Shown here: piece by piece, positions 24,165 to 41,333 of the stretch
Layout of the letters: every line of letters begins with the position of its first letter
How positions within the stretch are numbered: the first letter of the stretch is position 1
Assembly (NCBI GenBank): GCA_013140765.1
Contig: JABFSE010000010.1
Span: forward strand, 1-64,000
DNA from: Sulfuriferula sp.
GTDB lineage: Bacteria > Pseudomonadota > Gammaproteobacteria > Burkholderiales > Sulfuriferulaceae
DNA length: 64,000 nt
Reading direction: 5' to 3'
Position numbers and translations under genes: made by a program
Notes under the pieces: generated by a model
The model's input: only the letters and a program-made list of their open reading frames with translations
Told to the model about the DNA's origin: nothing
The model's database searches: none

Positions 24165-25424
24165 ATGAAACAAAAAAATATGTTGGTTGTAGCGTCAGTT
24201 TTAGTAACGGCTTTGTTAGCTGGTTGTTCAAGCACAGGTAGCGGCTTCGCTAGTGGTAGTGCAGGTAGTGCAGGTAGTGCAGGTAGTGCAGGTAGTACAG
24301 GTAGTACAGGTAGTACAGGTAGTACAGGTAGCACAGGTAGCACAGGTAGCACAGGTAGCACAGGTAGCACAGGTAGCACAGGTAGCACAGGTAGCACAGG
24401 TAGCACAGGTAGCACAGGTAGCACAGGTAGCACAGGTAGCACAGGTAGCACAGGCACCGCACCAGTCAATACATTATCTGGTGTGGGTACGACAGTATCA
24501 GGTGTAGGTAGCACTGTGTCGGGTTTAAGCACTACGCTTGCTAGTGTGCCATTGGTATCGCCTGCGGCGCAGACTGGTTTGAACGGTGTATTAGTGAATG
24601 CAGGTAGTGCAGTTAGCACATTAGGTAATGGTGTCGCTAATGGTTTAGGGCAAATAGGTGTGGTTAGTGATCCAGTTGGTGTCACTGTAGGCAGTGTCAG
24701 CGGTGTGGTAGGCAAACTGGGTGCAACGGTTAATAGTGCTGGACAATTAGTGACCGGCTTAGGTAGTGGGACGCTTTCAGTTCTATCACCAGTGACCACC
24801 CCAGTAGGTGCTTTAGTAAGCTCGCTTGGTATTGGCTTAACACAAGCAGAATCACCGTTGAACTCAGCATTAACGACAGGAACCGTTAAAAACCTAACAC
24901 AAACGGTGAGCAATGTTTTGACACCTGTTGTAGGTTCAGTCAATGGTTTAACACAAACAGTGGGTAATGTGACAGGGCTAAATGGCATTGTAAATCCGTT
25001 GTTAGTGACAGTAGGTCAAACCGTTGCGGGTTTAGGTACTTCGCTTGCCTTGACTAATGTGCCTGTTGTGAATGGTGTAGGTGGTGTTGTTAATACCGTG
25101 GGTAATACAGTAACGGCGTTAGGCGTTAATGGCTTGACGCAAACAGGACAGCCATTATTGGGTAACCAATACACAGGTGGCTTGTTATATCCCGTAACTG
25201 GTCTGCTAGGTGGCTTAACGGGTGTTGTTCCAGGTTCATCAACGGCTACAACTGGTTTATTAGCACCTGTAACAGGTTTGTTAGGTGGCTCTAGCACAGG
25301 TGGTTTACTTGCACCCGTGACTGGTTTGTTAAACGGCTTGCTGGGTGGTTTGTCATTGGGTACGTCAAGTTCAACGTCAGCATCCGCACCATCATCAACT
25401 GGTTTATTAGGTGGTTTGTTGTAA
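24165..25424 (+). CDS. Exported repeat lipoprotein, Gly-Ser-Thr and GLLAPVTGLLGG repeats
   Basis: A 419-residue predicted lipoprotein. The signal peptide ends in the lipobox LLAGC (Cys about 21). Directly after it come 22 Gly-Ser-Ala/Thr triplets encoded by a 9-bp tandem repeat. The rest is almost entirely Gly, Val, Thr, Leu, Ser and Ala in short imperfect repeats (SGVGTTVSGVGSTVSG, GLTQTVGNVTGL), and the C-terminus has LLAPVTGLLGG units shared with the next protein. Annotation pipelines tend to label similar proteins as collagen-like, though here Y-position prolines are absent. It may be a surface stalk or adhesin; the function is unknown. Frames on the other strand through the repeat are artefacts. 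Confidence 0.8.
   Translation: MKQKNMLVVASVLVTALLAGCSSTGSGFASGSAGSAGSAGSAGSTGSTGSTGSTGSTGSTGSTGSTGSTGSTGSTGSTGSTGSTGSTGSTGSTGSTGTAPVNTLSGVGTTVSGVGSTVSGLSTTLASVPLVSPAAQTGLNGVLVNAGSAVSTLGNGVANGLGQIGVVSDPVGVTVGSVSGVVGKLGATVNSAGQLVTGLGSGTLSVLSPVTTPVGALVSSLGIGLTQAESPLNSALTTGTVKNLTQTVSNVLTPVVGSVNGLTQTVGNVTGLNGIVNPLLVTVGQTVAGLGTSLALTNVPVVNGVGGVVNTVGNTVTALGVNGLTQTGQPLLGNQYTGGLLYPVTGLLGGLTGVVPGSSTATTGLLAPVTGLLGGSSTGGLLAPVTGLLNGLLGGLSLGTSSSTSASAPSSTGLLGGLL
24255..24452 (+). repeat. 9-bp coding minisatellite, 22 units
   Basis: The unit GGTAGYRCA is repeated 22 times without interruption: four GGTAGTGCA, four GGTAGTACA, then fourteen GGTAGCACA. The block structure shows stepwise expansion from a few founder variants, with the last fourteen copies identical. 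Because the unit is nine bases, copy-number change alters the stalk length but not the reading frame. Confidence 0.97.
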
Positions 25425-25670
25425 CGCATTTTTGGTTTGGTTATTTGTTAATGTTGTGAATATATTGGTTATCTAATTTGCAGATCGTCAATATATTTTC
25501 AATACGGTATTTAGCTTAGGGGAGGTGGGGAAACTTCATTTCTTGGGCTAAATTATTAAGCGTGGGAATTTGCTTAATAGTTGTTCATAAATTTTCTTGG
25601 CTTATAGTTTATTTGTCCATGATTTTTTATTTTTTATTCAATGTAGGTCAACTTTTTAGAGGATTTAATT
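25425..25670. other. AT-rich intergenic region between the two repeat-protein genes
   Basis: No gene and no clear terminator or sigma-54 site is seen. A ribosome-binding sequence AGAGGA precedes the ATG at 25671. The length and AT-richness suggest that the second repeat protein has its own promoter. Confidence 0.4.
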
Positions 25671-26507
25671 ATGAACGTATCACGTAATAAATTTGTGCCG
25701 TCTTCATTGTTGCTAGTTGCGTTGTTAGCTGGCAGTACTATTGCTAATGCAGATATTTTACCTACTGCTGAATTGTTGGCTCCTGTGGTTGGCGCGACTG
25801 GTATTTTAGTTGATGTTGCCAGTGCTAAAGTCGGTGGTTCTGGTAATTTAGTTGCGCCAGTTGTTAGTTCTGTGGGTGGCGTTTTGACTGCTGTTGGCAG
25901 CCCTACTGGCTTGCCAGTGCTTACCTCTGCTGTTGGTAGTGCTATTCGTACAGCATCTGGTGTTGTACCTGTGCTTGCTGGTCAAGTAGGTGCGATGACG
26001 GGTACGACTGCTATTTTGCAACCTGTAGTTAGTGCTGTTGGTATTTTGACTGATGTTGCCAGTGCTAAAGTCGGTGGTTCTGGTAATTTAGTTGCGCCAG
26101 TTGTTAGTTCTGTGGGTGGCGTTTTGACTGCTGTTGGTAGCCCTACAGGTTTACCAGTGCTTACCTCTGCTGTTGGTAGTGCTATTCATACGGTTGCAGG
26201 TGTTGTAACACCAATTACTTCATTAACTAATGCAACGGGCTTATTGGCTCCTGTAACAGGTTTGTTGGGTGGCGTAACAGGTGGTTCTACAGGTGGTTTG
26301 TTGGCTCCTGTAACTGGTTTGTTAGGTAGCTTAACAGGTGGTTCTACAGGTGGCTTATTGGCTCCTGTAACCGGTTTGTTGGGTAGCGTAACAGGTGGTT
26401 CTACTGGCGGTTTGTTGGCTCCTGTAACAGGCTTAGTAAGTGGCTTGTTAGGTAGTGTGTCTTTTGTTGCATCAACTACAGCGTCAACTACAGCGTCAAC
26501 TAACTAA
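25671..26507 (+). CDS. Exported repeat protein with duplicated 80-residue module and LLAPVTGLLG repeats
   Basis: A 278-residue protein with a Sec signal peptide (SLLLVALLAGSTIANA, cleavage before DILP). The mature part holds two nearly identical copies of an 80-residue module (first block LVDVASAKVGGSGNLVAP), then four 19-residue units LLAPVTGLLGG/S-TGGSTGG, then an STTAS tail. No cysteines, no charges to speak of, and no known domain. The LLAPVTGLLGG unit also occurs at the C-terminus of the preceding lipoprotein, so the two are related. The next gene encodes a TpsB-type transporter, which raises the idea that it exports one of them (inference). Confidence 0.8.
   Translation: MNVSRNKFVPSSLLLVALLAGSTIANADILPTAELLAPVVGATGILVDVASAKVGGSGNLVAPVVSSVGGVLTAVGSPTGLPVLTSAVGSAIRTASGVVPVLAGQVGAMTGTTAILQPVVSAVGILTDVASAKVGGSGNLVAPVVSSVGGVLTAVGSPTGLPVLTSAVGSAIHTVAGVVTPITSLTNATGLLAPVTGLLGGVTGGSTGGLLAPVTGLLGSLTGGSTGGLLAPVTGLLGSVTGGSTGGLLAPVTGLVSGLLGSVSFVASTTASTTASTN
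25801..26190 (+). repeat. 240-bp-offset direct repeat within the repeat-protein gene
   Basis: Bases 25801-25950 recur at 26041-26190 with only a few differences, an exact 240-base (80-codon) offset. The near identity at silent positions shows a recent duplication or ongoing gene conversion. Confidence 0.93.
26241..26445 (+). repeat. 57-bp tandem repeat encoding 19-residue units
   Basis: Units begin at 26241, 26298, 26355 and 26412, each starting with a Leu-Leu-Ala-Pro-Val-Thr-Gly block and differing mostly at third codon positions. The fourth unit is partial. Confidence 0.92.
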
Positions 26508-26620
26508 TCAGTAATTTATTAGTAAAGTAATACGCTCGTTGCTCACCACTGCGTTGCAATGTGGTGGTGAGTTTACTTAATGTTAATTATTTTTTACGCT
26601 GTTTCCTTACTAAAGTGAAT

Positions 26621-28321
26621 ATGAGCTTACGTTATTTTAACGGCACAATTATAGTTGCCATGCTTTTAATACTATCTACACCAATAGCGGGTGCAGATAC
26701 TACGGGGCCTGTTATTACCCAAGCTAATCCAGTGGATAGTTTTCCTGTTACTGGTGGTAAAGCGGCGGAACCTGTAAGTTTAGAAGTGGCTACACCTGCT
26801 GTAGATCCTGCAGTTCAGAATTTATTAAATAGTCATTTGGTTGTCTCCCGTGTGGAGTTAAGTGGTGTCCATGCTTTACCGTTTGAGCAAGTGGCGAGTT
26901 TTTTTACTGCTTTTGTTAATAAAGATACGACAGTTGCTGAAATGTTGACTGCCGCTAATCGCGTTACCCAGTTATATCGTGACCAAGGTTATCCTTTGTC
27001 GTTTGCTATCGTCCCAGCGCAGACTTTTGCCGATAATGTGGTCAAAATTACGGTTGTTGAAGGTTATGTAAACAAGGTGCGCATAGAAGGCAACGCGGGC
27101 TACAGCAAAAATCGCCTTAAAGCTATTGCCTCACAATTGGAAACCGAAAGGCCATTAACCCAAAAAGCCTTTGAGCGCATCATAGGGGTGTTTAATTTAC
27201 AACCTGGTGTACAAGTTGTTGCCAGCGTTGCTCCTCCTACAACAGAGGATGGTGGCGCAGAAATGTTGTTAAATGTAAAACGTCAGCCTATTACCGTAGG
27301 TTTAGGTATCGACTCTTTGCAATCAGGTATCCGCGCGCTAACGACAGTCAGCACTAATGCGCTCACGCCGTTAGGCGAGCAGCTTTCTGCCAGCGTTTTA
27401 CAGCCAGGCGGGGCGTTAAAAGAATCATACTATGCAGTAAATTACACTCAGCCTGTGGGCAAAAATGGCATGTTGCTTAAAGTTAACGGGTCAGATTACA
27501 AGGCGGAGCCAACTAATCAAACGTTGGCAGCACAGCAGTTTCAAACCCAATACCAAACCAAAATAACACGCTTGGGTGCAACACTCAGTTATCCTTTGAT
27601 ATTAGAAAATACACGTACTTTGACGCTAACGGGTGGGCTTTATGCGGCAGAGAGTAAGCAAGTGTTTGAACGTTCTGTGCCAGCATTACAAATGTCAGTT
27701 GAACTCAGCACTAAGGTGCGAGCTGTCAGTGCTGAATTAGCGTATGCGGACGTGAGTAAAAATAGTGAAAACCAGCAGCTAACACGGCAAATTTCTGTCG
27801 GTGTGTTTAGAGGTATCAATGGGCTAGGTGCGGCGAGCGTGAATAGCAATGCGGATTTAACGTTTACCCGAGCGACATTACAGCTTTCATTAGCCAAGCA
27901 ACTAAGCTATGGCTTTGGTATCGCATTTGCAGCGCGTGGGCAATATAGTGCTGATATTCTGCCATCCACTGAGCAAATAGGCTATGGCGGGCGTTTATTT
28001 GGCTTAGGCTATCCGCTGGGTGAAATTGCGGGTGATAGTGGTATCGGTGCTTCACTGGAGCTTAACCGTTTGTTTCCCGTTAATACTAAATACTTAAAGC
28101 AACTACAGCCGTATTTATTGGTGGACAGGGCTAAGGTTTACGCTAATGCGACGACATTGATACATGATAGTTTGGCCTCGGTCGCTTTGGGTATTCGTCT
28201 GTCAGATAATCGTCATTATAATCTTGATTTTTCTGTTGCGAAGCCGATAGCTGATAAACCAGCCAATAGTGCAAGTATGGCACCTAGGGTAAATGTGGCA
28301 TATTCGTATCAGCTAAATTAA
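26621..28321 (+). CDS. TpsB/FhaC/ShlB-type outer-membrane transporter
   Basis: A 566-residue two-partner-secretion pore of the Omp85 superfamily. From ATG 26621 it has a signal peptide (IIVAMLLILSTPIAGA). Two POTRA-like domains follow (about 60-220), with VVSRVELSGVHALPFEQV and VVKITVVEGYVNKVRIEGN. The rest is a beta-barrel ending in an aromatic/polar C-terminus (VNVAYSYQLN). No canonical TpsA exoprotein with a TPS/haemagglutination domain is next to it; the neighbours are the two repeat proteins and the Tad locus. The upstream frame to 26561 lacks a signal peptide and is not used. Confidence 0.88.
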   Translation: MSLRYFNGTIIVAMLLILSTPIAGADTTGPVITQANPVDSFPVTGGKAAEPVSLEVATPAVDPAVQNLLNSHLVVSRVELSGVHALPFEQVASFFTAFVNKDTTVAEMLTAANRVTQLYRDQGYPLSFAIVPAQTFADNVVKITVVEGYVNKVRIEGNAGYSKNRLKAIASQLETERPLTQKAFERIIGVFNLQPGVQVVASVAPPTTEDGGAEMLLNVKRQPITVGLGIDSLQSGIRALTTVSTNALTPLGEQLSASVLQPGGALKESYYAVNYTQPVGKNGMLLKVNGSDYKAEPTNQTLAAQQFQTQYQTKITRLGATLSYPLILENTRTLTLTGGLYAAESKQVFERSVPALQMSVELSTKVRAVSAELAYADVSKNSENQQLTRQISVGVFRGINGLGAASVNSNADLTFTRATLQLSLAKQLSYGFGIAFAARGQYSADILPSTEQIGYGGRLFGLGYPLGEIAGDSGIGASLELNRLFPVNTKYLKQLQPYLLVDRAKVYANATTLIHDSLASVALGIRLSDNRHYNLDFSVAKPIADKPANSASMAPRVNVAYSYQLN

Positions 28322-28372: not shown

Positions 28373-28428
28373 TTGCCAGTTGCCAGTTGCCAGTTGCCAG
28401 TTGCCAGTTGCCAGTTGCCAGTTGCCAG
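28373..28428 (+). repeat. Heptanucleotide tandem repeat (TTGCCAG)x8
   Basis: Eight perfect head-to-tail copies of TTGCCAG lie in the 219-base gap between the TpsB-type gene and the Flp pilin gene, ending 112 bases before the pilin ATG and followed by TTGCGAC. It is noncoding. Perfect heptamer arrays are prone to slippage, so copy number may vary between cells and could change promoter spacing or regulator binding. Confidence 0.97.
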
Positions 28429-28540
28429 TTGCGACTTGACTAAATCTGTTTTTTGTAAGAGACTTTACGTATTCTTGTTGATGTCATGACATGAATTTTG
28501 GGGCGTTCCCATTGTTGTTTGTTAATTAAGGAGATTTACC

Positions 28541-28714
28541 ATGAAAGAAAATATCATCGCTTTTTTGCAAGACGAAGAAGGTGCGACCGCTATTGAATAT
28601 GGTTTGATTGCAGGCTTAATTGCAGTTGCGATTATTGTTGGTGCTACTGCTTTGGGCGGTCAATTGAATGCTTTGTTTACTAACATTGCGACGAAATTGG
28701 GTATTACTGTCTAA
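28541..28714 (+). CDS. flp: Flp-family type IVb pilin
   Basis: A 57-residue prepilin, too short for usual ORF cut-offs. The start has AAGGAG upstream. The sequence MKENIIAFLQDEEG is followed by ATAIEYGLIAGLIAVAII. Cleavage by the TadV/CpaA-type peptidase is expected after Gly14, leaving the Flp signature with Glu and Tyr at mature positions 5 and 6. It is the major subunit of the Tad pilus. Its prepilin peptidase gene follows 20 bases later. Confidence 0.95.
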   Translation: MKENIIAFLQDEEGATAIEYGLIAGLIAVAIIVGATALGGQLNALFTNIATKLGITV

Positions 28715-28734: not shown

Positions 28735-29247
28735 ATGTTGATTTTATGGTTGTTGGTCATTGTTTATTACGATGTTAGCTGGCGTCGTGTACCTAACCAG
28801 TTATTGCTGGCCGCGATGGTGTGGCAAGGCGTTAACTGGTTAGTGTTCCACACGGGTTTATTTGATATTTCGCTTGAGTCTGCTGTGTTGGGTTTTGTTG
28901 TGAGTTTGGTAGTGTTTTTGCCACTATATGTTTTTAGGCTGATGGCGGCGGGGGATGTGAAATTTTTCGCTGTATTGGGTTTGTTGTTGGGACCCGTTAG
29001 TTTGTTACCTATTTTTGTGATTGGTTCATTGTTGGCGGGTGTGCATGCGTTGTTATATAAAACTTTGCACACGGGGAATGCCTTTTTATTACATTTGTTA
29101 CTCGTGCAGATGCAGCGTGGTCGATTTGTGCGCTACATTTTACAAAAACTTGACGCGAGAACAGGCCTACCCTACGCAGCTTATTTAGCAATAGGTGCGA
29201 TAGCCGTAGTGGTTTATACGCAAGCAAGTTGGTGGTTGCCATATTGA
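28735..29247 (+). CDS. tadV: Prepilin peptidase, TadV/CpaA type
   Basis: A 170-residue multi-spanning A24-family aspartic peptidase that cleaves Flp and the TadE/F-type pseudopilins. Catalytic aspartates are visible in YYDVSWRRVPN near the N-terminus and in the conserved AAGDVKFFA (around residue 75). It lacks the N-terminal methylase domain of PilD, as is normal for the Tad type. Confidence 0.93.
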   Translation: MLILWLLVIVYYDVSWRRVPNQLLLAAMVWQGVNWLVFHTGLFDISLESAVLGFVVSLVVFLPLYVFRLMAAGDVKFFAVLGLLLGPVSLLPIFVIGSLLAGVHALLYKTLHTGNAFLLHLLLVQMQRGRFVRYILQKLDARTGLPYAAYLAIGAIAVVVYTQASWWLPY

Positions 29248-29275
29248 GTTTGTGGTTTATTTTAAGGGGGAAGAA

Positions 29276-29707
29276 ATGAGCTTAGTTCGTGCTGACTTAC
29301 TACCTCAACGCGGGGCGGTAGCAATAGAGTTTGCGCTGGTGTTTCCCATATTTTTTGTACTCATGTACGGCATAGTGACTTATAGCGTTATTTTTTTGGC
29401 ACAACAGTCTATTACCTTAGCCGCTGAAGAAGGTGCGCGTGCTGCCTTGCGTTATGCGCCTACTACAGATGAACGTAATACCACGGCATGTAGCGTGGCC
29501 GCGCTTTCTTTGACTTGGCTGGGTGCTGGTAATGTTACTTGCAATGCGCAGGCGGGTAGTGTTGCGACGAATGGTAGTTATCCTATTAAGGTAACGCTTA
29601 GTTATCCTTATCAAGCAAAGCCACTAGTACCACTATTGCTTGGGTCGTTAATGAATGTAGCCGTGCCTACCACGCTGGCAAGCTCGGCAACGGTGTTCAT
29701 TGATTGA
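29276..29707 (+). CDS. tadE: TadE-like minor pilin
   Basis: From ATG 29276 (GGGGGAAG upstream) the protein has 143 residues. The N-terminal QRGAVAIEFALVFPIFFVLM is the TadE-type pseudopilin segment, with the conserved Glu after the cleavage site. The periplasmic part contains two Cys that could form a disulphide. It belongs to the pilus assembly operon. Confidence 0.9.
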   Translation: MSLVRADLLPQRGAVAIEFALVFPIFFVLMYGIVTYSVIFLAQQSITLAAEEGARAALRYAPTTDERNTTACSVAALSLTWLGAGNVTCNAQAGSVATNGSYPIKVTLSYPYQAKPLVPLLLGSLMNVAVPTTLASSATVFID

Positions 29708-29782
29708 GTGTGATGGATGTTGAGTCTGCGAGATGTATTTTTGAGGTAAGATAAATGAATTTTTTGACACTGAGCAAATGCG

Positions 29783-30754
29783 ATGAATAATTTGACAAAA
29801 GTGATTGCGGTAGTATTGGTGATTGCGGCAATTGTGCTGGCAATACTGGCTTGGTGGATGGGCAGTCGCCCAGCACCCGTACCTGTAGCGGTTAATAAGG
29901 GAGCGGTGGCAAGTTACCCCGTGGTGGTGGCTGTGCATGATTTGTTACCTAACAAACCCGTAGTCGCTGAAGACGTGCATCTGGTTGTCCTGCCTATTAA
30001 CCCAGCAGGGGCTTATACCGCTGTGAGTGCCGTCGTTGGTAAAGTGCCTATGGCCATTATCGGTGCAGGTACACCCTTAACAGAAGCGGGCATGGCGAGC
30101 GGTTTGGCAATCAAGTTGTTAGAAGGTGAGCGTGCTGTGGCAATTCGTGTGGACGACGTTATCGGCGTGAGTAACCAAGTTCACCCTGGTGATTATGTTG
30201 ATGTGTTTTTCACACTAAAGCAGGGTCAGGATGTTGACATAGATAAAAGTCAGGCTAGGTTGCTGTTATCAAGATTGCATGTGCTCTCATACGGGTCCGA
30301 TGTCGTCGGTGCCAGCTCTGCCGCAGTAGTGCCAGCAAGCCATAACCCTATGCCTGCGCCACAACAACCACAGCCACAACCAGCACATGCGGCTGTTTTG
30401 GCAACGCCTGTGGGTGATGTGAATCAGCTGTTATTAGCGGCACAAAATGGTAAGTTGATGTTGGTATTGCGTAATCCAACTGATGAAAAAATACCTGATT
30501 TAGCTTTATTCCCAACGCCGCCAGTAGTGCTTAACGCTAAAGCAGGGTTAACTAAAGACCAAAAAGAGGCATTGGTTACACCTGATAACTTGGCTTTTGC
30601 GGGTGCAAAATTGTCTGGTCTAGTTGGCGATAGTAAAGCACGACGTGTAACTGAGGTGGGTAAACGTGGTGTGGGCGGCGGGCAAACAGATGCTAAACCT
30701 GCTCCGCGAATTGAGGTGATTCGTGGTGTTAAGCGTGAAACAGAGACGTTTTAA
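29783..30754 (+). CDS. cpaB: Flp pilus assembly protein CpaB/RcpC
   Basis: A 323-residue protein with an N-terminal membrane segment (about 6-27) and then an SAF domain (about 45-115, with AVHDLLPNKPVVAEDVHLV) followed by the RcpC/CpaB domain containing GERAVAIRVDDVIGVSN and VHPGDYVDVFFTL. A Pro/Gln-rich linker interrupts the middle (about 190-205). It is thought to act in the periplasm with the secretin, perhaps binding peptidoglycan or carbohydrate. Confidence 0.94.
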   Translation: MNNLTKVIAVVLVIAAIVLAILAWWMGSRPAPVPVAVNKGAVASYPVVVAVHDLLPNKPVVAEDVHLVVLPINPAGAYTAVSAVVGKVPMAIIGAGTPLTEAGMASGLAIKLLEGERAVAIRVDDVIGVSNQVHPGDYVDVFFTLKQGQDVDIDKSQARLLLSRLHVLSYGSDVVGASSAAVVPASHNPMPAPQQPQPQPAHAAVLATPVGDVNQLLLAAQNGKLMLVLRNPTDEKIPDLALFPTPPVVLNAKAGLTKDQKEALVTPDNLAFAGAKLSGLVGDSKARRVTEVGKRGVGGGQTDAKPAPRIEVIRGVKRETETF

Positions 30755-30823
30755 GGCTAACTGATTATCCACGGTAATTTTGCTGATGATCGATGTAAGT
30801 TAACAATGGAATGAAGGCAAGTT

Positions 30824-32143
30824 ATGAAAAATTATGCTCCAGTTTTTAGCCTAGTATTGGGTGCGATGATAGTGTCGCAAGGCGTGCAAGCGGCAGTGAA
30901 AGAGATGGATGTAACTTTGAGCATACGTCAGCAACAGGTGTTGCCCATGCCCACGAGTTTAGAGCGTGTTGTCGTTGCTGACCCCGAGGTCGCTGATGTG
31001 CTAGTGGTACGGGGGGGGGCTGGTCAACCGGGTAGTATTATTTTGTCAGGTAAGAAAGCGGGGCAAACGACGGTGACTGCTTGGTCAAAAGGTAGTGCTG
31101 TCAGTGTTTGGAAAGTATCTGTATTTGGAAATATGCAGTCTATTTTGGCTGGACAATCTGGTGCGACGCTGAAAGTACAAAATAATGTTGCGATGCTGAG
31201 TGGTGTTGCGCCGTCGGTTTTGTCACACGCTAATAGCGCAACTGCGGCACTTAATGCGGTAGGGCAGGGCAATGTATTAGATATATCTACGATAGATAGC
31301 TCGGGTGTGGTGCAAATTGATGTGAAGATTGTGGAATTCAGCAAAAAAGTATTGAAAGAGGCTGGCTTCGATTTTGGTGGTAGTACGACGAGTAGTAATT
31401 TTTCTTTCCAGTTGGGCAGTAATTTGGCCAGTGCTGGGGGCTTAACAGCGGCCTCATCGGCTTTTAATTTATTGACTAATTTTAATCGTAATACTGGCTA
31501 TAGTTTGGTAAGTAATTTGCGTTTGATTGAAGGTAATGGGCTGGCACGGGTGTTAGCTGAACCTTCATTGACGGCACTCTCTGGACAAAGTGCAAGTTTT
31601 TTAGTGGGTGGCGAGTTGCCTATTCCTTCAGCAGGTGGGCTGGGTACAACGACGATAGTGTATAAGCCCTTTGGTATCGGTTTGACGGTATCTCCTACGA
31701 TATTGAGTAAAGATAGGATAGTTTTGAAAGTAGCACCTGAAGCCAGTGAAATTGATTATAGCAATGCGATTGTGTCTAACGGGGTTTCTATCCCCGCTAT
31801 TACGACGCGCCGCGCTGATACGACGGTTGAGTTGGGTGATGGTGAGAGCTTTGTGATAGGCGGTCTGGTGTCACGCGCAACGCGCTCTAATGTCAATAAA
31901 ATTCCATTGTTAGGTGATTTGCCTATATTAGGCACGTTTTTTCGTAACTTAAGTTATACCCAAAATGATAAAGAGCTGGTGATTGTCGTTACACCACATT
32001 TGGTGCGCCCTATTGCAAAAAACACTAAGTTGGCTTTGCCTGGTACGCAACAAGAGCAACATGGTGAGGCTGCGACAGTGTGGGGTAGTTATTTATTAGG
32101 TGGTGCGGTAGATGATACCACTGTACCTGGTTTTTCCAAGTAG
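30824..32143 (+). CDS. cpaC: Tad secretin CpaC/RcpA
   Basis: A 439-residue outer-membrane channel protein. A signal peptide (ending GVQA) precedes an N-terminal domain that binds the pilus system, then a BON-like middle (about 105-150) and the secretin domain (about 170-405) with SNLRLIEGNGLARVLAEPSL and TVELGDGESFVIGGLVS. It forms the ring through which the Flp pilus passes. It follows CpaB, the usual order. Confidence 0.95.
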   Translation: MKNYAPVFSLVLGAMIVSQGVQAAVKEMDVTLSIRQQQVLPMPTSLERVVVADPEVADVLVVRGGAGQPGSIILSGKKAGQTTVTAWSKGSAVSVWKVSVFGNMQSILAGQSGATLKVQNNVAMLSGVAPSVLSHANSATAALNAVGQGNVLDISTIDSSGVVQIDVKIVEFSKKVLKEAGFDFGGSTTSSNFSFQLGSNLASAGGLTAASSAFNLLTNFNRNTGYSLVSNLRLIEGNGLARVLAEPSLTALSGQSASFLVGGELPIPSAGGLGTTTIVYKPFGIGLTVSPTILSKDRIVLKVAPEASEIDYSNAIVSNGVSIPAITTRRADTTVELGDGESFVIGGLVSRATRSNVNKIPLLGDLPILGTFFRNLSYTQNDKELVIVVTPHLVRPIAKNTKLALPGTQQEQHGEAATVWGSYLLGGAVDDTTVPGFSK

Positions 32144-32174
32144 TGAAGCCAGGGGCAAACAAGGTGATCGATAT

Positions 32175-33449
32175 ATGAATGCCAATAGAGCAACTTCAGC
32201 GCACCGTATCGTATTGTGTTCCATGCTAGGTGAGCAAGAGAGTTGGCTGAATCAAAATTTGGCTGTTTTTGGTGGTGTGTCATGCGAGCGTGGTGACTCA
32301 CCTACATTAGTTCCCCGACTGCTAATGCGTCAACCTACGTTAGTGATTATTGATTTTTCGGGTGAGGTAACGACGACAAGCGCGCTAGTTGGTAGCGTTG
32401 AGGAAGCTGAAACAGGGGTGTTAAATAATGCAGTTGCATTAGCTCATTCCTTAAAAGAGGCGGATGCTCATCTATTGATGGTGGGGATTGGTCGCATGGA
32501 TTCCCCTGCGGGCGTGATGGCGGCTTGGCGTGCTGGTGTGCATGGTTTTATAGACATGATGGGGGAAGCGCAGGATGCGGTAGATATCGTTCATTTGGCG
32601 TTATCTCGCTCGACAAATAATAAACCCACACCTGTTAAAAAGGGCGATGTGTTGGCTTTGTTAAGTGCTCGCCCAGGTGTTGGTGCTAGTACGTTGGCCG
32701 CGCACTTTGCTGATAAATGTCAGCATCGTTTACGCGATAAAACCACAGATTTAACACATAGGCATGTATGTGTGCTGGATTTAGGGTCTCCTACTGGAGA
32801 TGGTCAGTTGTATTTAGGCGCAAATGGACAATTTGATTTTGTTGAGGCTGTACGTAATTTACATCGTTTGGATGCAACTTTAATCAATACAGCTTGGGCA
32901 CATAGTGCTAGTGGTGTGGCTATTGTGTCTGCGCCTGTCATAGCTACCGATTTGGATATGTTATCGTTAAATGATGTGTTAGCACTTATTGAACGTTTGC
33001 GTTTGTATTTTGATGTCGTCGTCATAGATTTGGGTGGCTTGGTTAACTTTAAGTTAATGAATGCTGTTGCAGGTATGGCTAATAAAGTGTGGGTGGTAAC
33101 GGATCAAAGTGTTGGTGCATTGGTGTCGTTAGCGGGTGTATTGAAAAAATTAGATGAGTCGTTACTAAATGAACACAAAGTGCAGCTTATTGTAAATCGC
33201 TATGATGAGCGTTACGGTATGTCTGCAGTGCAAATTGGAGAGCGTTTCCAATTGCCGTTATTACGTTCATTGCCTGAAAGAGCGTTGAAACTGATGACCA
33301 GTGCAAATCGTGGAAAACTGTTGCATGAGTTATTACCCAGCGATATTTATGCGCAAGCAATAGACGGTTTAATGGATGACTATTTTGGGCAATCAGTAGG
33401 TCGTAAACGAGTGAGTTGGTTGGCTAAGTTTTCGCCACGAAAATCGTGA
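32175..33449 (+). CDS. cpaE: TadZ/CpaE-like localisation ATPase
   Basis: From ATG 32175 the protein has 424 residues. An N-terminal receiver-like domain (about 10-135) is followed by a MinD/ParA-like domain with LLSARPGVGASTLAAHFA. In this Walker A the usual lysines of MinD are replaced (GVGAST in place of GKGGVGKT), a known property of many TadZ/CpaE proteins that suggests a structural, pole-marking role more than strong ATP hydrolysis. The longer frame to 32112 overlaps the secretin gene and is not supported. Confidence 0.9.
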   Translation: MNANRATSAHRIVLCSMLGEQESWLNQNLAVFGGVSCERGDSPTLVPRLLMRQPTLVIIDFSGEVTTTSALVGSVEEAETGVLNNAVALAHSLKEADAHLLMVGIGRMDSPAGVMAAWRAGVHGFIDMMGEAQDAVDIVHLALSRSTNNKPTPVKKGDVLALLSARPGVGASTLAAHFADKCQHRLRDKTTDLTHRHVCVLDLGSPTGDGQLYLGANGQFDFVEAVRNLHRLDATLINTAWAHSASGVAIVSAPVIATDLDMLSLNDVLALIERLRLYFDVVVIDLGGLVNFKLMNAVAGMANKVWVVTDQSVGALVSLAGVLKKLDESLLNEHKVQLIVNRYDERYGMSAVQIGERFQLPLLRSLPERALKLMTSANRGKLLHELLPSDIYAQAIDGLMDDYFGQSVGRKRVSWLAKFSPRKS

Positions 33450-33596
33450 GTGTATATTTTTTGTAGTTAGGTAGTGGATATTGATAGCCATTGAGTTAGC
33501 GGGGCGGTCGTCATAACGGTATGCCGTGTTTCCTTTAACCTAACGCCTGTAAATGGTTGTGTATCTAAAGATTTAGCAATAATTAGGAGAAATGGC

Positions 33597-34922
33597 GTGA
33601 TCGACCAAATTGAGCTTTCGGAGAGCGAACGAGCATTCTCGAATACACAGGAATTTCAAGATATAAAAACCGCAACATACGAACATTTGTTGACGCGGAT
33701 TGAGGAGCTGGGGTCTGAGTTTGGTCGTTGGTCTCGAAATACAGTTCACCAGTTTGTTAATTTAGAAGTTGACGGTTTTGTACGCATAAATCGCATCCCG
33801 TTAAATGAGCAAGAGGTTAGACAAATATCCAGTGCGCTGACTAATGAGCTCGCTGGCATGGGGCCACTAGAAGATTTGCTGGCAGATGCGGCTGTGGAAG
33901 ATATATTGATTAACGGTTATAACGATGTTTTTGTTTCACGACATGGGATGCTACAGCGTGAAAACTTACGTTTTACCGATAATGCGCATTTGTTGCGTAT
34001 TGTGCAACGTATTTTAGCCCAAATAGGGCGGCGTTTAGATGAGTCTAATCCTATGGTGGACGCTCGCTTGCCAGATGGCGGGCGGATGAATGTGGTTATT
34101 TCGCCGTTGGCGGTAGATGGCCCTATGGTGTCTATTCGTAAGTTCCGTGTCGAACCATTGAAACCTGAAGATTTGCTTAACCTAGGTACGATGAATCAAG
34201 AAATTTATACGTTATTAGATAATGCGGTAAAGGCGAGATGCAATATCTTGATTTCTGGCGGTACTAGCTCGGGTAAAACTTCTTTATTAAATGCGCTGGC
34301 GTTCTTTGTGCCGAATAGCGAGCGTGTGGTGACAGTGGAAGATACAGCAGAGTTATCATTAAATCATCCACATGTAGTACGATTGGAGTCGCGTATTGGC
34401 GGTTTTGATGGTGCTGGCGCGGTTAGTATTCGTGATTTAATTCGGAATAGTTTGCGTATGCGCCCAGATCGTATTGTCGTTGGTGAAGTGCGTGGTGCAG
34501 AAGTGCTCGAGATGTTGCAGGCGATGAATACGGGGCATGACGGCTCTATGGCGACAATACATGCGAACTCACCGCGTGAATGTTTGCATCGTATCGAAAT
34601 GTTGGCTGGATTCGCTGGCTTTCAAGGGAGTGAAAACTCTTTACGCAACCAGATTGCGGGTGCTTTGGATTTCGTCGTACAAATTGCCCGTTTGGCTAAT
34701 GGTCGCCGCCGCTTGGTTTCAATTACGGAAGTGACGGGCATGGGCGATAACATTATTACACTACAAGAGCTGTATCGTTATGAGAGTTATGTCGGTGCAG
34801 ATGGGGAAGATGTTGACCGTTGGGTCGCTATGGGGATTTTCCCACATTCGCCTAAGTTGCAACGCTTACGTCAGCAACAAGGTGTGAAAAATAGTGCTAG
34901 TGAATTAGTTGGGAGACGCTAG
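33597..34922 (+). CDS. cpaF: Tad pilus assembly/retraction ATPase CpaF/TadA
   Basis: A 441-residue secretion ATPase of the VirB11/PulE superfamily, starting at GTG with AGGAG about seven bases upstream. Walker A is ISGGTSSGKTSLLNAL; further motifs are VTVEDTAELSL, MRPDRIVVGEVRGAE (Walker B region) and the His box MNTGHDGSMATIHANSP. It drives pilus polymerisation at the inner membrane. It is followed directly by tadB. Confidence 0.96.
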   Translation: MIDQIELSESERAFSNTQEFQDIKTATYEHLLTRIEELGSEFGRWSRNTVHQFVNLEVDGFVRINRIPLNEQEVRQISSALTNELAGMGPLEDLLADAAVEDILINGYNDVFVSRHGMLQRENLRFTDNAHLLRIVQRILAQIGRRLDESNPMVDARLPDGGRMNVVISPLAVDGPMVSIRKFRVEPLKPEDLLNLGTMNQEIYTLLDNAVKARCNILISGGTSSGKTSLLNALAFFVPNSERVVTVEDTAELSLNHPHVVRLESRIGGFDGAGAVSIRDLIRNSLRMRPDRIVVGEVRGAEVLEMLQAMNTGHDGSMATIHANSPRECLHRIEMLAGFAGFQGSENSLRNQIAGALDFVVQIARLANGRRRLVSITEVTGMGDNIITLQELYRYESYVGADGEDVDRWVAMGIFPHSPKLQRLRQQQGVKNSASELVGRR

Positions 34923-35852
34923 ATGACGCATATTGCGCTTTGGTTAAGTTCGGGAACGTTGTTGTTAACCGCGCTGGCAGTCTGGTTTTGGCAGAAAGCT
35001 GGAATAGAAGCACGTCAGCAAAAAAGTGCAAATTTCGTTGACAGCCATATACAGGATGACTACGTTGTTCAGCAGCAGGGAGTTACGCCTGATGGTAACG
35101 AGTTGTCTAATCTGCATTCAGTGGCATTCCGTGATTTCTTTTTACGAGCGGGTATAACGCCTACCGTATCATTTTTCTTAAAGCTGGTATTGCCTTGGTT
35201 GTTTTTGAGTATTTTGGCAGCTTATTTTGGTGGTTGGTTGTCAGTAGCTGGTGTGTTGTTGTTGTATGTAGTGCTGGTGCGCTTTAATTGGTGGCTACGG
35301 ACATCTAGGCGACAACGAGATATGTTGCGTCAATTACCCGTGTTGATTGAAACAATGGTGCGCTTAATTACGATAGGTCATAGTATAAGCGCGGCTTTCC
35401 AGCAAGCAGTGATAACAACGGATGAACCGTTACGTGACGTGTTGGATCGCGTAAATCGACAGGCTCAATTGGGTGTGGCTTTAGATAAGGCACTACATAA
35501 AGAGGCGAAAACTTTTCGTTTTACTCAGTTGGATTTAGTGGCTGCTGTGATTGGTTTGGCAAGCCGCTTTGGCGGACGTTCAGATCAGGCGCTTGAACGT
35601 ATGGCCGCTTTTATGCGGGATTTAGAGCATGCGCAACAGGAATTCGCTTCACTGTCAACCGAGGTGCGTTTATCCGCTTGGGTAATGGCTTTGTTGCCTA
35701 TCGCTATCGGTATATTTCTTATTATTTTTAATAATAATATGTTTTTAACAATGTGGCATGACCCTATAGGTAAAAATATGCTGGTAGGTGCTGTGGTGTT
35801 GGAGATTGTAGGTAGTTATTGGTTGTATCGATTAGCAAAAACCATACGGTGA
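34923..35852 (+). CDS. tadB: Tad inner-membrane platform protein TadB
   Basis: A 309-residue T2SSF-domain membrane protein. Hydrophobic segments occur at the N-terminus (about 5-23), in the middle (about 75-115) and at the C-terminus (about 245-305). The cytoplasmic part contains LPVLIETMVRLITIGHSISA, typical of TadB. It starts with the base after the cpaF stop, so translation is coupled. Confidence 0.93.
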   Translation: MTHIALWLSSGTLLLTALAVWFWQKAGIEARQQKSANFVDSHIQDDYVVQQQGVTPDGNELSNLHSVAFRDFFLRAGITPTVSFFLKLVLPWLFLSILAAYFGGWLSVAGVLLLYVVLVRFNWWLRTSRRQRDMLRQLPVLIETMVRLITIGHSISAAFQQAVITTDEPLRDVLDRVNRQAQLGVALDKALHKEAKTFRFTQLDLVAAVIGLASRFGGRSDQALERMAAFMRDLEHAQQEFASLSTEVRLSAWVMALLPIAIGIFLIIFNNNMFLTMWHDPIGKNMLVGAVVLEIVGSYWLYRLAKTIR

Positions 35853-35876
35853 TTTGGAAAAAGTGAGGGTAAAAGA

Positions 35877-36824
35877 TTGAATTCAGTACAACAGGTATTG
35901 TGGGTGTTTGTGTTGCTATTGATCGCTGGTGCGTTGTTGCTGGTTGGTTGGTCTTTGCTCGCACAGGGTAGGCGATTGGCTGAAAATGAACTGGTGGTCG
36001 ATCGTATCATTGCGGCGCAGCATGATGATAAGGATGCTAAGCCAGTGCTGTCATGGCAAGATCGTTTGGTGGATTTGTTTAAGGGTTTAATAGATACACC
36101 TTTGGGACGGATATTTGTAGCTGAGGAAGATAGACACTTATTAGATCAGAGCGGCTTAAACGATAACCGTGGACGAGTTTTGTTCTTTATTCTACGTGCT
36201 GGGTTAAGTGTAGGTTTACCTTTGCTGGCTTTTTTGCTATTGAGTAAAAGTAATGATGTGTCAGTGGTGATATTAAGTGCTTTTTTTGGTCTGGCACTGG
36301 GGTACATGTTACCTAAGTGGGTAATGCAAAGTATAGCGACACAGCGCAAGGAGAGAGCCGCTGAAGAGTTGCCATTGCTAATTGATTTGTTGAGACTGTT
36401 GCAGGGTGTAGGACTATCTGTGGATCAAAGCCTGCATGTGATTGAGCACGAGTTTATTGAAGTGTTGCCTGTTTTAGGTGGTGAATTAGTACTCGCATCA
36501 CAGCAGTATCGCGTTGGTCGCACTCGTGAACAGTCATTAAAACGGCTTGCAACTGTCTTTGATCACGCTGATTTACAGTCCTTAACTCAATTGATTGTAC
36601 AAGTAGAGCGGCATGGTGGTGCTGTGCAAGAACCATTACGTGTATTTAGCGAGCGAATTCGCGAGCAACGTAAATTAGATATGAAGGCGTTAATTGGTAG
36701 GCTAACAGTGAAAATGACGGGAGTGATGGTGTTGACCTTGTTACCAGGGTTGTTGATCATTACAGGAGGCGTTGGATTTTTAGCGGTTATTCGGGCGTTG
36801 TCTAAAATGACGGGTACAAGTTAA
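35877..36824 (+). CDS. tadC: Tad inner-membrane platform protein TadC
   Basis: A 315-residue second T2SSF protein, starting at TTG with GAGGG upstream. It has an N-terminal segment (about 5-27), central hydrophobic stretches (about 95-145) and a C-terminal pair (about 275-308), with ELPLLIDLLRLLQGVGLSVD as the family's cytoplasmic motif. It pairs with TadB in the pilus platform and overlaps tadD by one base. Confidence 0.93.
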   Translation: MNSVQQVLWVFVLLLIAGALLLVGWSLLAQGRRLAENELVVDRIIAAQHDDKDAKPVLSWQDRLVDLFKGLIDTPLGRIFVAEEDRHLLDQSGLNDNRGRVLFFILRAGLSVGLPLLAFLLLSKSNDVSVVILSAFFGLALGYMLPKWVMQSIATQRKERAAEELPLLIDLLRLLQGVGLSVDQSLHVIEHEFIEVLPVLGGELVLASQQYRVGRTREQSLKRLATVFDHADLQSLTQLIVQVERHGGAVQEPLRVFSERIREQRKLDMKALIGRLTVKMTGVMVLTLLPGLLIITGGVGFLAVIRALSKMTGTS

Positions 36825-37732
36825 TGTGCTGTAAGTGGCTATATTTTTTATCTGGACTGATAGTGGTATCCACGCTGTCTGGATGTACGAATGACTCTGC
36901 CGCACGTTTGTTTGCGCAACAAAATGCGGCGGCAGAGCTACGTCAACAGGAAGAAAGTAAAACACCTACCCCTGATAATCAGGTCGTGTATCTGGGGCTT
37001 ATTAAGCAGATGCAAGCGAAGGGTTTGTATTTTGCTTCGCTGGCGCATATAGACGCGTATGAAAAACAATATGGGAATTCATCCGCTTTGAAGCTGTTGC
37101 AAGCGGATGCTTTAAGGGAAACGCAACAAACGGTTGCCGCTGAAGCGACTTATCGCGAGTTACTTTCGACTTCGGAGTCAGGATACGCTTGGCATGGTTT
37201 GGGGTTGTTAGCCGCAAAAAATGGACATTATAAGGAAGCTGTACCCTTTTTGCTGTCGGCGGTTAAAGAGCATCCCACCGATGCGACTGCGTTAAGTGAT
37301 TTAGGGTTTGCGCTATTGCAAACGGGGGATGTGGCAGGTGCACGTGTGCCGCTTGCTCAAGCGGCTGAACTCGCGCCAGATAACGGTGTTATTGTTGCCA
37401 ATTTTGCGTTAATGCTGAGTATCAGTGGTGATAATGGTAAAGCGCAAGCAGTGATGAGTAAAATCAATTTGCCTGCTAAAAGTCAAGAGGCTGTATATAG
37501 TTTAGCAAAAACATTGATGTCACCCGTTCCAGTGGTGTTGGTTAAAAAGGAGGTTGTTTCTACCGCCCACGGTGAGTCGGTTAATAAGGGGGGTGTGGTA
37601 ACGCCGCCTATTACGCCTCATGTTGCAAGTGCAGTGATTGATGTAGTAGATGAGATACCTCTACCTGGTCTGTCATTACGACCTAGTATGGCTCTGTCTA
37701 ATGTAACGCCATATCATCAGTCACAACGTTAG
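36824..37732 (+). CDS. tadD: TadD-like TPR lipoprotein
   Basis: A 302-residue predicted lipoprotein with lipobox LSGC (Cys about 21) and tetratricopeptide repeats from about residue 45 to 215 (for example GYAWHGLGLLAAKNGHYKEA and ATALSDLGFALLQTGDVAGA). The C-terminal 80 residues are low-complexity. TadD is a pilotin-like helper for the secretin in other Tad systems. Confidence 0.9.
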   Translation: MCCKWLYFLSGLIVVSTLSGCTNDSAARLFAQQNAAAELRQQEESKTPTPDNQVVYLGLIKQMQAKGLYFASLAHIDAYEKQYGNSSALKLLQADALRETQQTVAAEATYRELLSTSESGYAWHGLGLLAAKNGHYKEAVPFLLSAVKEHPTDATALSDLGFALLQTGDVAGARVPLAQAAELAPDNGVIVANFALMLSISGDNGKAQAVMSKINLPAKSQEAVYSLAKTLMSPVPVVLVKKEVVSTAHGESVNKGGVVTPPITPHVASAVIDVVDEIPLPGLSLRPSMALSNVTPYHQSQR

Positions 37733-37782
37733 TGTTTGCTAAAGTGATTTAGTGTGTTCTGTGTCAATTTTAGAGGTTAGGA

Positions 37783-38121
37783 ATGAATATGAAAAATAGT
37801 CTATATAGCAATTTAATGCGGGCATTAGGTCTGATTTCTGCGTTGTCGTTGATACCCTTTGGTAGCTATGCCGAGGATACCCGTGCTCAAGTTCAGACTA
37901 CTGCGCAAACTGATATAGCACCTAGTAATGAAGCTGGCTATGTGGTTGGTGATGCAACGCGTGAGTTACTGCGGGCACAAGTGAGCGGTAGCGTTGCTGG
38001 ACCGCGTTTGCCTATGTTGGGTGTTACGGCTGATGCGAGTTTGCAACGCTATCTTGATAGTTACAAGCATCCTTTACCCGAGTTTTATGAAAATCGTATT
38101 AAAAAAGATACTGGTAAGTAA
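37783..38121 (+). CDS. DUF3613-like small exported protein of the Tad locus
   Basis: A 112-residue protein with a signal peptide (LGLISALSLIPFGSYA, cleavage before EDTRA). The mature part has GYVVGDATRELLRAQVSG and ends with a YLDSYKHPLPEFYENRI-type segment. This matches my memory of DUF3613 proteins found in Tad loci of betaproteobacteria and pseudomonads. Function is unknown. Its stop overlaps the tadG start. Confidence 0.75.
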   Translation: MNMKNSLYSNLMRALGLISALSLIPFGSYAEDTRAQVQTTAQTDIAPSNEAGYVVGDATRELLRAQVSGSVAGPRLPMLGVTADASLQRYLDSYKHPLPEFYENRIKKDTGK

Positions 38122-39800
38122 TGATGCTATATACACAATCGAATAATAGGCTGGCGGTGCGTCAACGTGGCTCGATAGCGGTGATGGCAGTGATATTTCT
38201 ATCTTTGATTGTTATTTTGTTGTCGGTTATTGATATTGGTAATCTATTTTACAAAAAACGTGATTTGCAAAAAGTGGCAGATTTAGCTGCGTTAGCAGGT
38301 GCACAATCGTTACCAATAAATAATGTGCTTGATTGCAGTGTAGTAACATCAACGGCTAAAGCCAATGCGGAGTCAAACAACTTTTCAGACGTATCGCCTA
38401 ACACAACAAATAAAATGGTCGTGCCAACTTGTGGTCGTTGGGATACGCAAACTAATCCTACATCTTCTACGGTCGCCATTTACGAAACGCCTATGGGTAA
38501 GTATTTTGGAACGCCTAAGGCTGGAATCGGTTATAACGCGGTGAAGGTGGTTGTGTCTGAGAATGTGCCGCGTTTTTTTGGCTTAGGAACGCAGTATGTG
38601 GTTGCTCAGGCGATTGCATCGCAGTCTCAACCTACGGCGGCATTCTCTTTGGGCACTGGTTTGTTATCGTTATGTAGTGCTAGTAGTCCATTATTAAATC
38701 CTTTGGTGAATGGTTTGCTGGGTAGTGATGTATGTCTCTCTGCCGTTACCTACAATGGTTTGGTTGGATCTAATGTCTCATTGTTGGGCGTGTTGGCAAA
38801 TTTGGGCTTGAGTGTGGGTACGATAGACCAGGCTTTGAATACGCAGGTGACGTTGGCGCAATTGGTCAACGCGACTGTGGCTGCGTTATCGCCAGATCAG
38901 ATTGCGGCTATCAATGTTAATGATTTAGTGGCACTTACCACGGGTACGCTAGGTGGAACATTACTTACATTAGGTGATGTGTTGAATGTGAATGCGGCGG
39001 ATGGTATGGCGGCACTGGATGCAAAAATAAATGTATTGGATTTAATCAATGTCGCTACGCTACAAGTGGCAAATAAAAATAATTTTTTAGACTTGGGTGC
39101 AGGCATCAATCTTGGTATTGCGACGGTTGCTTTGAAACTGAACTTGATTGAGTCACCCAAAATGGCTGTAGGCGGTGTTGGCGTTAGTGCAACTTCAGCG
39201 CAGTTACGTTTGGCATTGATGGTTAATGTGGGTTTGCCAGGTTTAGCTTTGGTAAACCTGCCGCTATATGTGGATTTAGCCCCTGGGAAAGCAACGTTGA
39301 CTGGTTTGCAATGCAATACCCCACAAAGTGCTACATTTGATATTCAGCCTGGTTTAGCCGAGGTGTGTTTAGGTAGTAACCAAACAGCTGCTAGTGCGCC
39401 ATTTTCTTGCCCTGCTGATATGTCACAACGTGTTAACCGTGTGGATGTTATTCCTGGAGTGCTTAATTTAGGTATTAATGCTTCTCTGACCAATGCACCT
39501 ACCTCAGTCAATACACCCTCACCATTTCCATATAGCGTCACGGTGGGGACTTTGTTGGCGAGTATTCTAGGTAACATCATTACGCCAAGCTCTATAGGTG
39601 CGGGGTCTGATTTATTATTAGGCTTGCTTGATCCTGTCATATCTGCACTATTGGCGAGCTTAGGTGCAATTCTCAATCCTATTTTAGCCTTAGTAGGTGG
39701 TTTACTTGATTCCGTGTTGGCACTGTTGGGGCTTGGTGTTGGTCAGAGTACATTAAATGTATCTTCGGTTAGTTGTGGTAATGTGCAATTGGTTTACTGA
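38121..39800 (+). CDS. tadG: TadG-like pilus assembly protein
   Basis: A 559-residue protein with a TadE/TadG-type N-terminus: QRGSIAVMAVIFLSLIVILL and YKKRDLQKVADLAALAGAQS, the typical start of TadG. The long remainder is predicted to be periplasmic or extracellular and contains many Leu/Gly/Asn repeats. Near the end there is a highly hydrophobic stretch (about 490-540) with LLDPVISALLASLGAILNP, similar in rhythm to the LLAPVTGLLG repeats of the exported proteins upstream. TadG-type proteins probably anchor or cap the pilus. Confidence 0.85.
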   Translation: MMLYTQSNNRLAVRQRGSIAVMAVIFLSLIVILLSVIDIGNLFYKKRDLQKVADLAALAGAQSLPINNVLDCSVVTSTAKANAESNNFSDVSPNTTNKMVVPTCGRWDTQTNPTSSTVAIYETPMGKYFGTPKAGIGYNAVKVVVSENVPRFFGLGTQYVVAQAIASQSQPTAAFSLGTGLLSLCSASSPLLNPLVNGLLGSDVCLSAVTYNGLVGSNVSLLGVLANLGLSVGTIDQALNTQVTLAQLVNATVAALSPDQIAAINVNDLVALTTGTLGGTLLTLGDVLNVNAADGMAALDAKINVLDLINVATLQVANKNNFLDLGAGINLGIATVALKLNLIESPKMAVGGVGVSATSAQLRLALMVNVGLPGLALVNLPLYVDLAPGKATLTGLQCNTPQSATFDIQPGLAEVCLGSNQTAASAPFSCPADMSQRVNRVDVIPGVLNLGINASLTNAPTSVNTPSPFPYSVTVGTLLASILGNIITPSSIGAGSDLLLGLLDPVISALLASLGAILNPILALVGGLLDSVLALLGLGVGQSTLNVSSVSCGNVQLVY

Positions 39801-39977: not shown

Positions 39978-41333
39978 ATGGCAACTAATTCATTAGCAGA
40001 TAACTTAGAGTTGTATGTTTGGGAAGGTAAGTCTGATATAGCAGAACGTATTACAGCGTGTATGAGTAGCTTTAATGTGGACGTTATCCGCGCTGAGGAT
40101 GCGCTTGTTATGCCGAGTAAAGGTGCGGTACGACCTGCAATTGCCGTAATGTCAGTTTCTGTGATTGATCGTGCAGTTGTTTCTGCGGATGTCTGGTTAA
40201 AGACGCATCATATGCCCGTTATTTGGGTTGCTGATGTGGAGCGTGTCGCTGACCCACGTGTATATCCGCCTAGTTATAAACATATTTTGATGTTGGACTT
40301 TACTTGCGCTGAATTACGTTTGTTAATTAGCAAGATGGCAACAGAGTTGTTACGTAGTAATGAGCCTGACTCGGTATTGGTGCCTTTTGTTGCCGAGTCA
40401 GATTGTATGCAGGCATTGTTGAGTGAGGTTGAAACTTTTTCCGATTGTGATGTGAATGTGTTGGTGATGGGTGAAACAGGCGTAGGTAAGGAACGCATCG
40501 CCCAGTTGTTGCATCAGCAACATCAACGCTATTGTTTAGGATCTTTTGTCGCCGTCAATTGTGGTGCGATTCCCGATGGTTTATTTGAGTCCTTATTTTT
40601 TGGTCACGCTAAGGGGGCTTTCACTGGTGCAGTGTTGGCACACAAAGGATATTTTGAGCAAGCTGATGGTGGCACGTTGTTTCTTGACGAAATAGGTGAG
40701 TTACCTTTATATCAGCAAGTTAAATTATTGCGTGTATTAGAGTTGCGCGCGGTTACACGAGTAGGCTCTCAAAATGAGATTGCGCTGGATTTTCGATTGA
40801 TTGCAGCAACGAATCGAAATTTACGCGAATTAGTTAGCGAAGGCTTGTTTAGAGCTGATTTGTATTACCGTTTGGCTGTTATTGAGTTGCACATACCGAG
40901 CCTAGACGCACGTGGTTATAATGATAAAGTGGCTATCTTTTCTAATTTATTGGCACAGATTGATGCCGCGACACCAGCACCACCTAGCTGGTTGTTAGAT
41001 TTGGTAGGCACTTCAAATTTTGCTGGTAATGTTAGGGAACTACGTAATGTCGCCGAACGAATAGGTATTATTTATCGGCAATTAGGTCATTGGGATAGAT
41101 CGCGTATAGAGCGTGTATTCTCTACATTATTGAGTCCTGCTTTGATTATGGCTGATAGTTATCCAGATGCTGTGGTGAGTTTTAATGAAGTTGAGTTAGC
41201 AGAACGTGAACGCATTGTAGCCATGTTGGATGCGAATGGTTGGCGTCGCCAAGATACCGCCAATGCGATAGGTATCAGTCGTAAAGTTTTGTGGGAAAAA
41301 ATGCGTAAATTTCGATTGCTTACAGCGAATTAG
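39978..41333 (+). CDS. Sigma-54-dependent transcriptional activator
   Basis: A 451-residue enhancer-binding protein. The AAA+ domain (about 140-370) has Walker [11 protein letters not shown], an intact sigma-54 contact loop GAFTGAV and Walker [14 protein letters not shown]. The C-terminal Fis-type HTH contains [20 protein letters not shown]. The N-terminal 135 residues resemble a divergent receiver or unknown sensing domain; I cannot see a clear phospho-acceptor site. The gene follows the Tad operon and is the natural candidate to control it or the upstream repeat-protein genes, but I found no convincing GG-N10-GC promoter by eye. Confidence 0.9.

Follow-up and report, generated by a model that had tools for sequence, protein, structure and literature searches.

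A conserved couple of a Collagen_mid lipoprotein and a TpsB-type transporter, probably a variant of two-partner secretion

The repeat lipoprotein and the TpsB-type outer-membrane transporter encoded in the window (the whole stretch of 64,000 nucleotides analyzed here) represent a real, conserved couple. The pair recurs in many proteobacteria that are not closely related, whether or not a pilus locus is present, which points to a putative form of two-partner secretion with unusual cargo. The best reading, which we hold with somewhat better than even confidence, is a two-partner-secretion-like module with non-classical, mostly lipidated cargo that would be translocated by the TpsB; it probably represents a variant form of two-partner secretion. 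By definition, the cargo of type Vb secretion has a TPS domain and is beta-helical, and a TpsB clade tied to lipoproteins that have neither a TPS domain nor a beta-helix would, if the reading is right, widen the range of cargo that such transporters can move. The relevant features of the window are listed below.

24165..25424, + strand: P1 lipoprotein gene (ATG at 24165), with Collagen_mid domain (PF15984), lipobox and helical domain model
24262..24454, + strand: 9-bp tandem array (21.4 copies) coding for the Gly-Ser-Thr stalk of P1
25671..26507, + strand: P2 repeat protein gene (ATG at 25671), with SPase-I-type signal, internal duplication and APVTGLLG repeats
26621..28321, + strand: TpsB-type transporter gene, with POTRA_2 and ShlB domains, 2 POTRAs and a 16-strand barrel
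28541..28714, + strand: Flp pilin gene, first gene of the Tad locus (PF04964, 8.4e-20), context and not core
28735..39800, + strand: Tad locus, apparently co-acquired context (58 of 69 couples have related genes nearby)
39978..41333, + strand: sigma-54-dependent activator gene closing the Tad locus, a possible regulator (PF00158, 5e-63)

Bacterial genomes were searched with the window TpsB, and the neighboring genes were scored with a profile built from the middle domain of the lipoprotein. The resulting clade set comprises 69 loci with a TpsB at least 30% identical to that of the window (four of these loci came from other routes). A co-directional Collagen_mid lipoprotein gene lies within 500 bp of the TpsB gene in 64 of them. 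It precedes the TpsB gene in 47 and follows it in 17, on the same strand in every case, and these couples span several families and orders. Cupriavidus metallidurans CH34 (L009) and a Collimonas (L014) are among the bacteria that carry the couple. The exceptions are L051, L052, L062 and L076, which are cut by contig ends, and the Methylobacillus locus L064, where the adjoining lipoprotein has APVTG repeats and no Collagen_mid domain. None of the 11 loci of the more distant, outgroup TpsBs carries a Collagen_mid lipoprotein (Fisher 2e-12 against the clade, ignoring relatedness). In a further sample of 300 genomes from the order, Collagen_mid is found in 8 genomes and TpsB in 12, and, by coordinates, the TpsB gene adjoins a Collagen_mid gene in all 8 Collagen_mid genomes (3e-13, again ignoring relatedness). 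Three of the genomes with a TpsB but no Collagen_mid (G042, G088 and G204) encode an APVTG-repeat lipoprotein beside the TpsB. A class-wide draw of 369 genomes yielded Collagen_mid in only two more genomes, both times beside a TpsB of 29-30% identity.

All 10 sampled Collagen_mid genomes, two of them from outside the order, thus have an adjoining TpsB, the opposite of the widespread occurrence of such repeat proteins away from any TpsB that the initial annotation had named as evidence against a pairing. The pairing that it proposed stands at the level of the conserved couple and does not extend to every gene copy, as 8 of the 20 Collagen_mid copies in the order sample lie apart from TpsB, and each of these 8 comes from a genome with the couple. 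The most distant TpsB of the order sample (31% identity; G179, locus L096) has no clear adjoining lipoprotein, and an ORF about 2.4 kb away is weakly similar to P2. A test for coevolution of the lipoprotein with TpsB by pairwise distances does not single out TpsB as the partner: lipoprotein distances correlate at 0.90 with those of TpsB and at 0.93 with those of the Tad protein RcpA, and partial correlation favors RcpA.

The lipobox of P1 (LLAG/C, then SSTG) is followed by a (Gly-Ser-Thr/Ala)n stalk, the Collagen_mid domain, APVTGLLGG repeats and a C-terminal GLLGGLL. The description of P1 as a repeat lipoprotein with a stalk in the initial annotation is correct but overlooked its membership of an existing Pfam family, PF15984 (E 3.2e-51; 174 bits versus a gathering cut-off of 31.1). 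The model of the Collagen_mid domain is all-helical, with long helices packed in a bundle (pLDDT about 80-90), and the domain therefore is no beta-helix, in keeping with the earlier suggestion that the substrate is not a beta-helical hemagglutinin. The stalk and the C-terminal repeats have low model confidence, as disordered segments would, and a Foldseek search with the P1 model returned no PDB match at E < 0.5. Among 88 untruncated partners, the last residue is basic in 86 and a GLLGG-like motif occurs within the last 16 residues in 72; the window P1 keeps the GLLGGLL end and lacks the basic end residue.

The stalk of P1 consists of 23 Gly-X-Y triplets in an unbroken row, all devoid of proline, and, because the 9-bp unit is in frame, a change of copy number would affect only the stalk length. 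PF01391 matches P1 at E 1.7e-9. What P1 has in common with the collagen-like adhesins Scl1/Scl2 and Lcl is a low-scoring match of the Gly-X-Y stalk; it differs in that this match falls under every curated NCBIfam cut-off and that the stalks in related loci are usually out of the Gly-X-Y register. Strict Gly-X-Y runs of at least 6 are found in few partners of the related loci, so that the stalk has the look of a spacer of low complexity and variable sequence, and the name "collagen-like" may not suit many of these lipoproteins. The lipoprotein that adjoins the TpsB in locus L098 (5979-7652) has a very long (Gly-Asp-Pro)n stalk instead of the Gly-Ser-Thr stalk seen in the window.

P2 is probably a diverged relative of the P1 lipoprotein. 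Its signal peptide, as read from the sequence, is of the SPase-I type (ANA/D), and a sequence scan found no lipobox. The protein contains a near-exact internal duplication of ~68 residues, and its gene contains 3.3 copies of a 57-bp repeat that carries the same LLAPVTGLLG motif as P1. No family profile matches P2 over its cut-off. In tests of its likeness to Collagen_mid proteins, the middle part scores 8.6 bits (best shuffle, -8.3; the sequence is compositionally biased) and Z values are mostly 2-5, a similarity so marginal that the assignment of P2 to the Collagen_mid proteins was dropped. Non-lipidated exported companions resembling P2 are encoded as third genes in loci L061 and L106. The Sec-exported companion in L106 (4442-5419) has VGTVTDTV-GLTGG repeats in common with the lipoprotein of that locus; such sharing of locus-specific repeats is confined to L106 and absent from the window.

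The transporter of the window matches POTRA_2 (1e-19) and ShlB (7e-16), and its model (mean pLDDT 86) contains two POTRAs and 16 strands, counted by hand, with CdiB and FhaC as the top PDB matches; it thus has the POTRA domains and the 16-strand Omp85-type barrel expected on the transporter side. The genes for P1, P2 and this FhaC/CdiB-type TpsB are all in the places where the initial annotation had put them, and the Tad locus follows. The absence of an ordinary TpsA partner, which it had also proposed, is confirmed at the scale of the genome: a profile search for the TPS domain (PF05860) found no match in the whole genome (100% complete by the tool used) and none in P1 or P2, and the window TpsB is the sole ShlB protein above the cut-off. 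The same search is positive in 16 of 18 comparison genomes, which makes this null result informative. A typical TpsA elsewhere in the genome, which had been named as grounds for giving up the idea of a repeat-protein substrate, was looked for in this search and is not there.

The gene arrangement itself is not new. The initial annotation knew of no description of it, yet the order of genes has been published for Burkholderia cenocepacia, with BCAL1524-1520 located beside flp (PMC2753556, PMC10224339, PMC7970998). This cluster was already noted in 2009 (PMC2753556), and Estevens et al. have described Collagen_mid lipoproteins in the B. cepacia complex as well as the operon bcal1524-bcal1523-bcal1522-bcal1520, which adjoins the flp operon (PMC10224339). 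BCAL1523/BCAL1524 and BCAL1522 resemble the window module in the PF15984 family, the gene set and the Flp pilus neighbor (PMC10224339, PMC2753556). The published table places BCAL1522 (1,686 bp) in the outer membrane under the name "putative exported heme utilization-related protein" (PMC10224339); unlike the TpsB in the present reading, BCAL1522 is not proposed as a secretion partner. In the matching locus L100, the TpsB gene is likewise 1,686 bp long, and we infer that L100 belongs to the B. cepacia complex. Contact with host membranes induces both bcal1523 and bcal1524 along with flp genes (PMC7970998, PMC10224339), and BCAL1524 is found in outer-membrane vesicles; its deletion lowers autoaggregation, which is restored by complementation (PMC10303873). 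A literature search, with thin coverage of subscription journals, found no paper that pairs these lipoproteins with the TpsB as a secretion couple.

The more likely reading is that the module functions like two-partner secretion. P1 (and probably P2) would cross the inner membrane by Sec; P1 would then receive its lipid and travel to the outer membrane, where the dedicated TpsB would bring the repeats and the helical part of P1 to the cell surface. In this predicted topology, P1 could be anchored by its lipid and, on its low-complexity stalk, act as a filament for adhesion or aggregation, and the module and the Tad locus might be co-regulated surface-attachment functions. Since no partner has a TPS domain, recognition must differ from that in classical two-partner secretion; the best candidate signals are the C-terminal APVTGLLGG repeats and the GLLGG tail, as these are common to lipidated and non-lipidated partners.

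As in the type Vb systems FHA/FhaC, HMW1A/HMW1B and CdiA/CdiB, the cargo and transporter genes are adjacent, and the TpsB has two POTRAs and a 16-strand barrel. In contrast to those systems, the cargo candidates of the window type lack the TPS domain and the beta-helix, are mostly lipoproteins and are modeled as helical with disordered ends, whereas the TpsBs of the clade mostly lack the arginine of the L6 motif. With these features missing on both the cargo and the transporter sides, the module should not be filed as ordinary two-partner secretion. There is perhaps an even chance that it represents a branch of type V secretion in its own right. The specialized TpsB of such a branch, in most cases lacking the L6 arginine, would export repeat proteins that are lipid-anchored, largely helical or disordered and devoid of a TPS domain, and would recognize them via their C-terminal APVTGLLGG repeats. 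TbpB is an example of a lipid-anchored protein that is taken to the surface by an outer-membrane barrel, in this case Slam. To our knowledge, neither Slam nor the fused autotransporter barrels are separately encoded, POTRA-bearing TpsB proteins. The proposed module would resemble Slam-dependent and autotransporter-type (NalP, SphB1; PMC8151025) surface lipoproteins in the use of a barrel to surface a lipid-anchored protein and differ from them in that the barrel is a separate TpsB with POTRAs. If so, it would provide a candidate surface route for lipoproteins in bacteria without Slam and a transporter for the "collagen-like" adhesins of Burkholderia and its relatives.

An alternative that we consider unlikely is that the TpsB and the lipoprotein take part in one surface process but the lipoprotein is exported by another route, with the TpsB acting as an outer-membrane tether or assembly factor, in the way that the loops of HMW1B hold HMW1. 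This possibility draws on the existence of orphan lipoprotein copies apart from TpsB, which, however, are confined to genomes with the couple, and on the state of the L6 motif, VRG[YF]. In 57 of 67 clade TpsBs, including that of the window (Leu462), Leu, Met, Tyr, Ala or Ser takes the place of the arginine of this motif, which is retained in 10, whereas all 10 outgroup TpsBs with an aligned L6 region have it. The arginine has been described as forming a conserved salt bridge and as part of a motif essential for activity in FhaC (PMC5422565), so that its loss in most of the clade could reflect a changed or reduced transport function. However, both POTRAs and the complete 16-strand barrel are retained, and arginine-bearing members of the clade (e.g., L039, L064, L106 and L107) have a partner of the same kind, which indicates that the loss of the arginine is not tied to the loss of the partner. 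Should the two-partner-secretion-like reading hold, the clade would offer a natural test of the requirement for the L6 arginine in transport.

Still less probable is an accessory role of the lipoproteins and TpsB in the Tad pilus, with which they would travel as one adhesion island, the TpsB serving pilus or matrix deposition. The Tad locus of the window encodes a prepilin peptidase, TadE, RcpC/CpaB, RcpA, a CpaE-like protein, TadA, two T2SSF proteins, a TPR protein, a DUF3613 protein and a TadG-like protein, and 58 of the 69 couples have four or more Tad genes nearby. Such a role would also fit the lipoprotein distances, which follow RcpA best, the joint induction of bcal1523/bcal1524 and flp genes (PMC7970998) and the apparent co-acquisition of the block in the window species. 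Collagen_mid is found in 0 of 17 congeners and TpsB in none of the eight congeners listed, and the window RcpA is at most 37% identical to that of a congener versus 69% in G024, the reverse of the housekeeping LeuA (93% in the congener G014 and 63% in G024). Synteny with G014 reaches through dnaQ and is then lost. The whole block of module and Tad locus therefore looks acquired, and the module probably arrived together with its Tad locus by horizontal transfer. Nevertheless, the genetic association with Tad genes is not obligate, as no such genes lie within ~7-10 kb of the couple in Luteibacter (L053), Hydrogenophaga (L071) and two distant gammaproteobacteria (L106 and L107). These loci identify the lipoprotein and TpsB as the core unit and the Tad locus as dispensable, and decoration of the pilus, as suggested in the initial annotation, is not needed to explain the pair. 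We also know of no general need of Tad loci for a TpsB. Finally, a chance juxtaposition of an unrelated lipoprotein and an orphan TpsB would fit the view from a single genome only and, being refuted by the recurrence across families and orders, on the same strand and even in inverted order, has practically no probability left.

A promoter and terminator scan gave no more sites than were found in shuffled sequences. Within the Tad locus, the DUF3613 protein is encoded at 37783-38121, and the TadG-like protein (38121-39800) has a hydrophobic Gly/Leu-rich C-terminus, LLGLLDPVISALLASLGAILNPILALVGGLLD, with a faint likeness to the P1 and P2 repeats. Between the TpsB gene and flp (28373-28432) lies a perfect tandem repeat of the 7-bp unit TTGCCAG (8.6 copies), a candidate for length variation that might affect flp expression.
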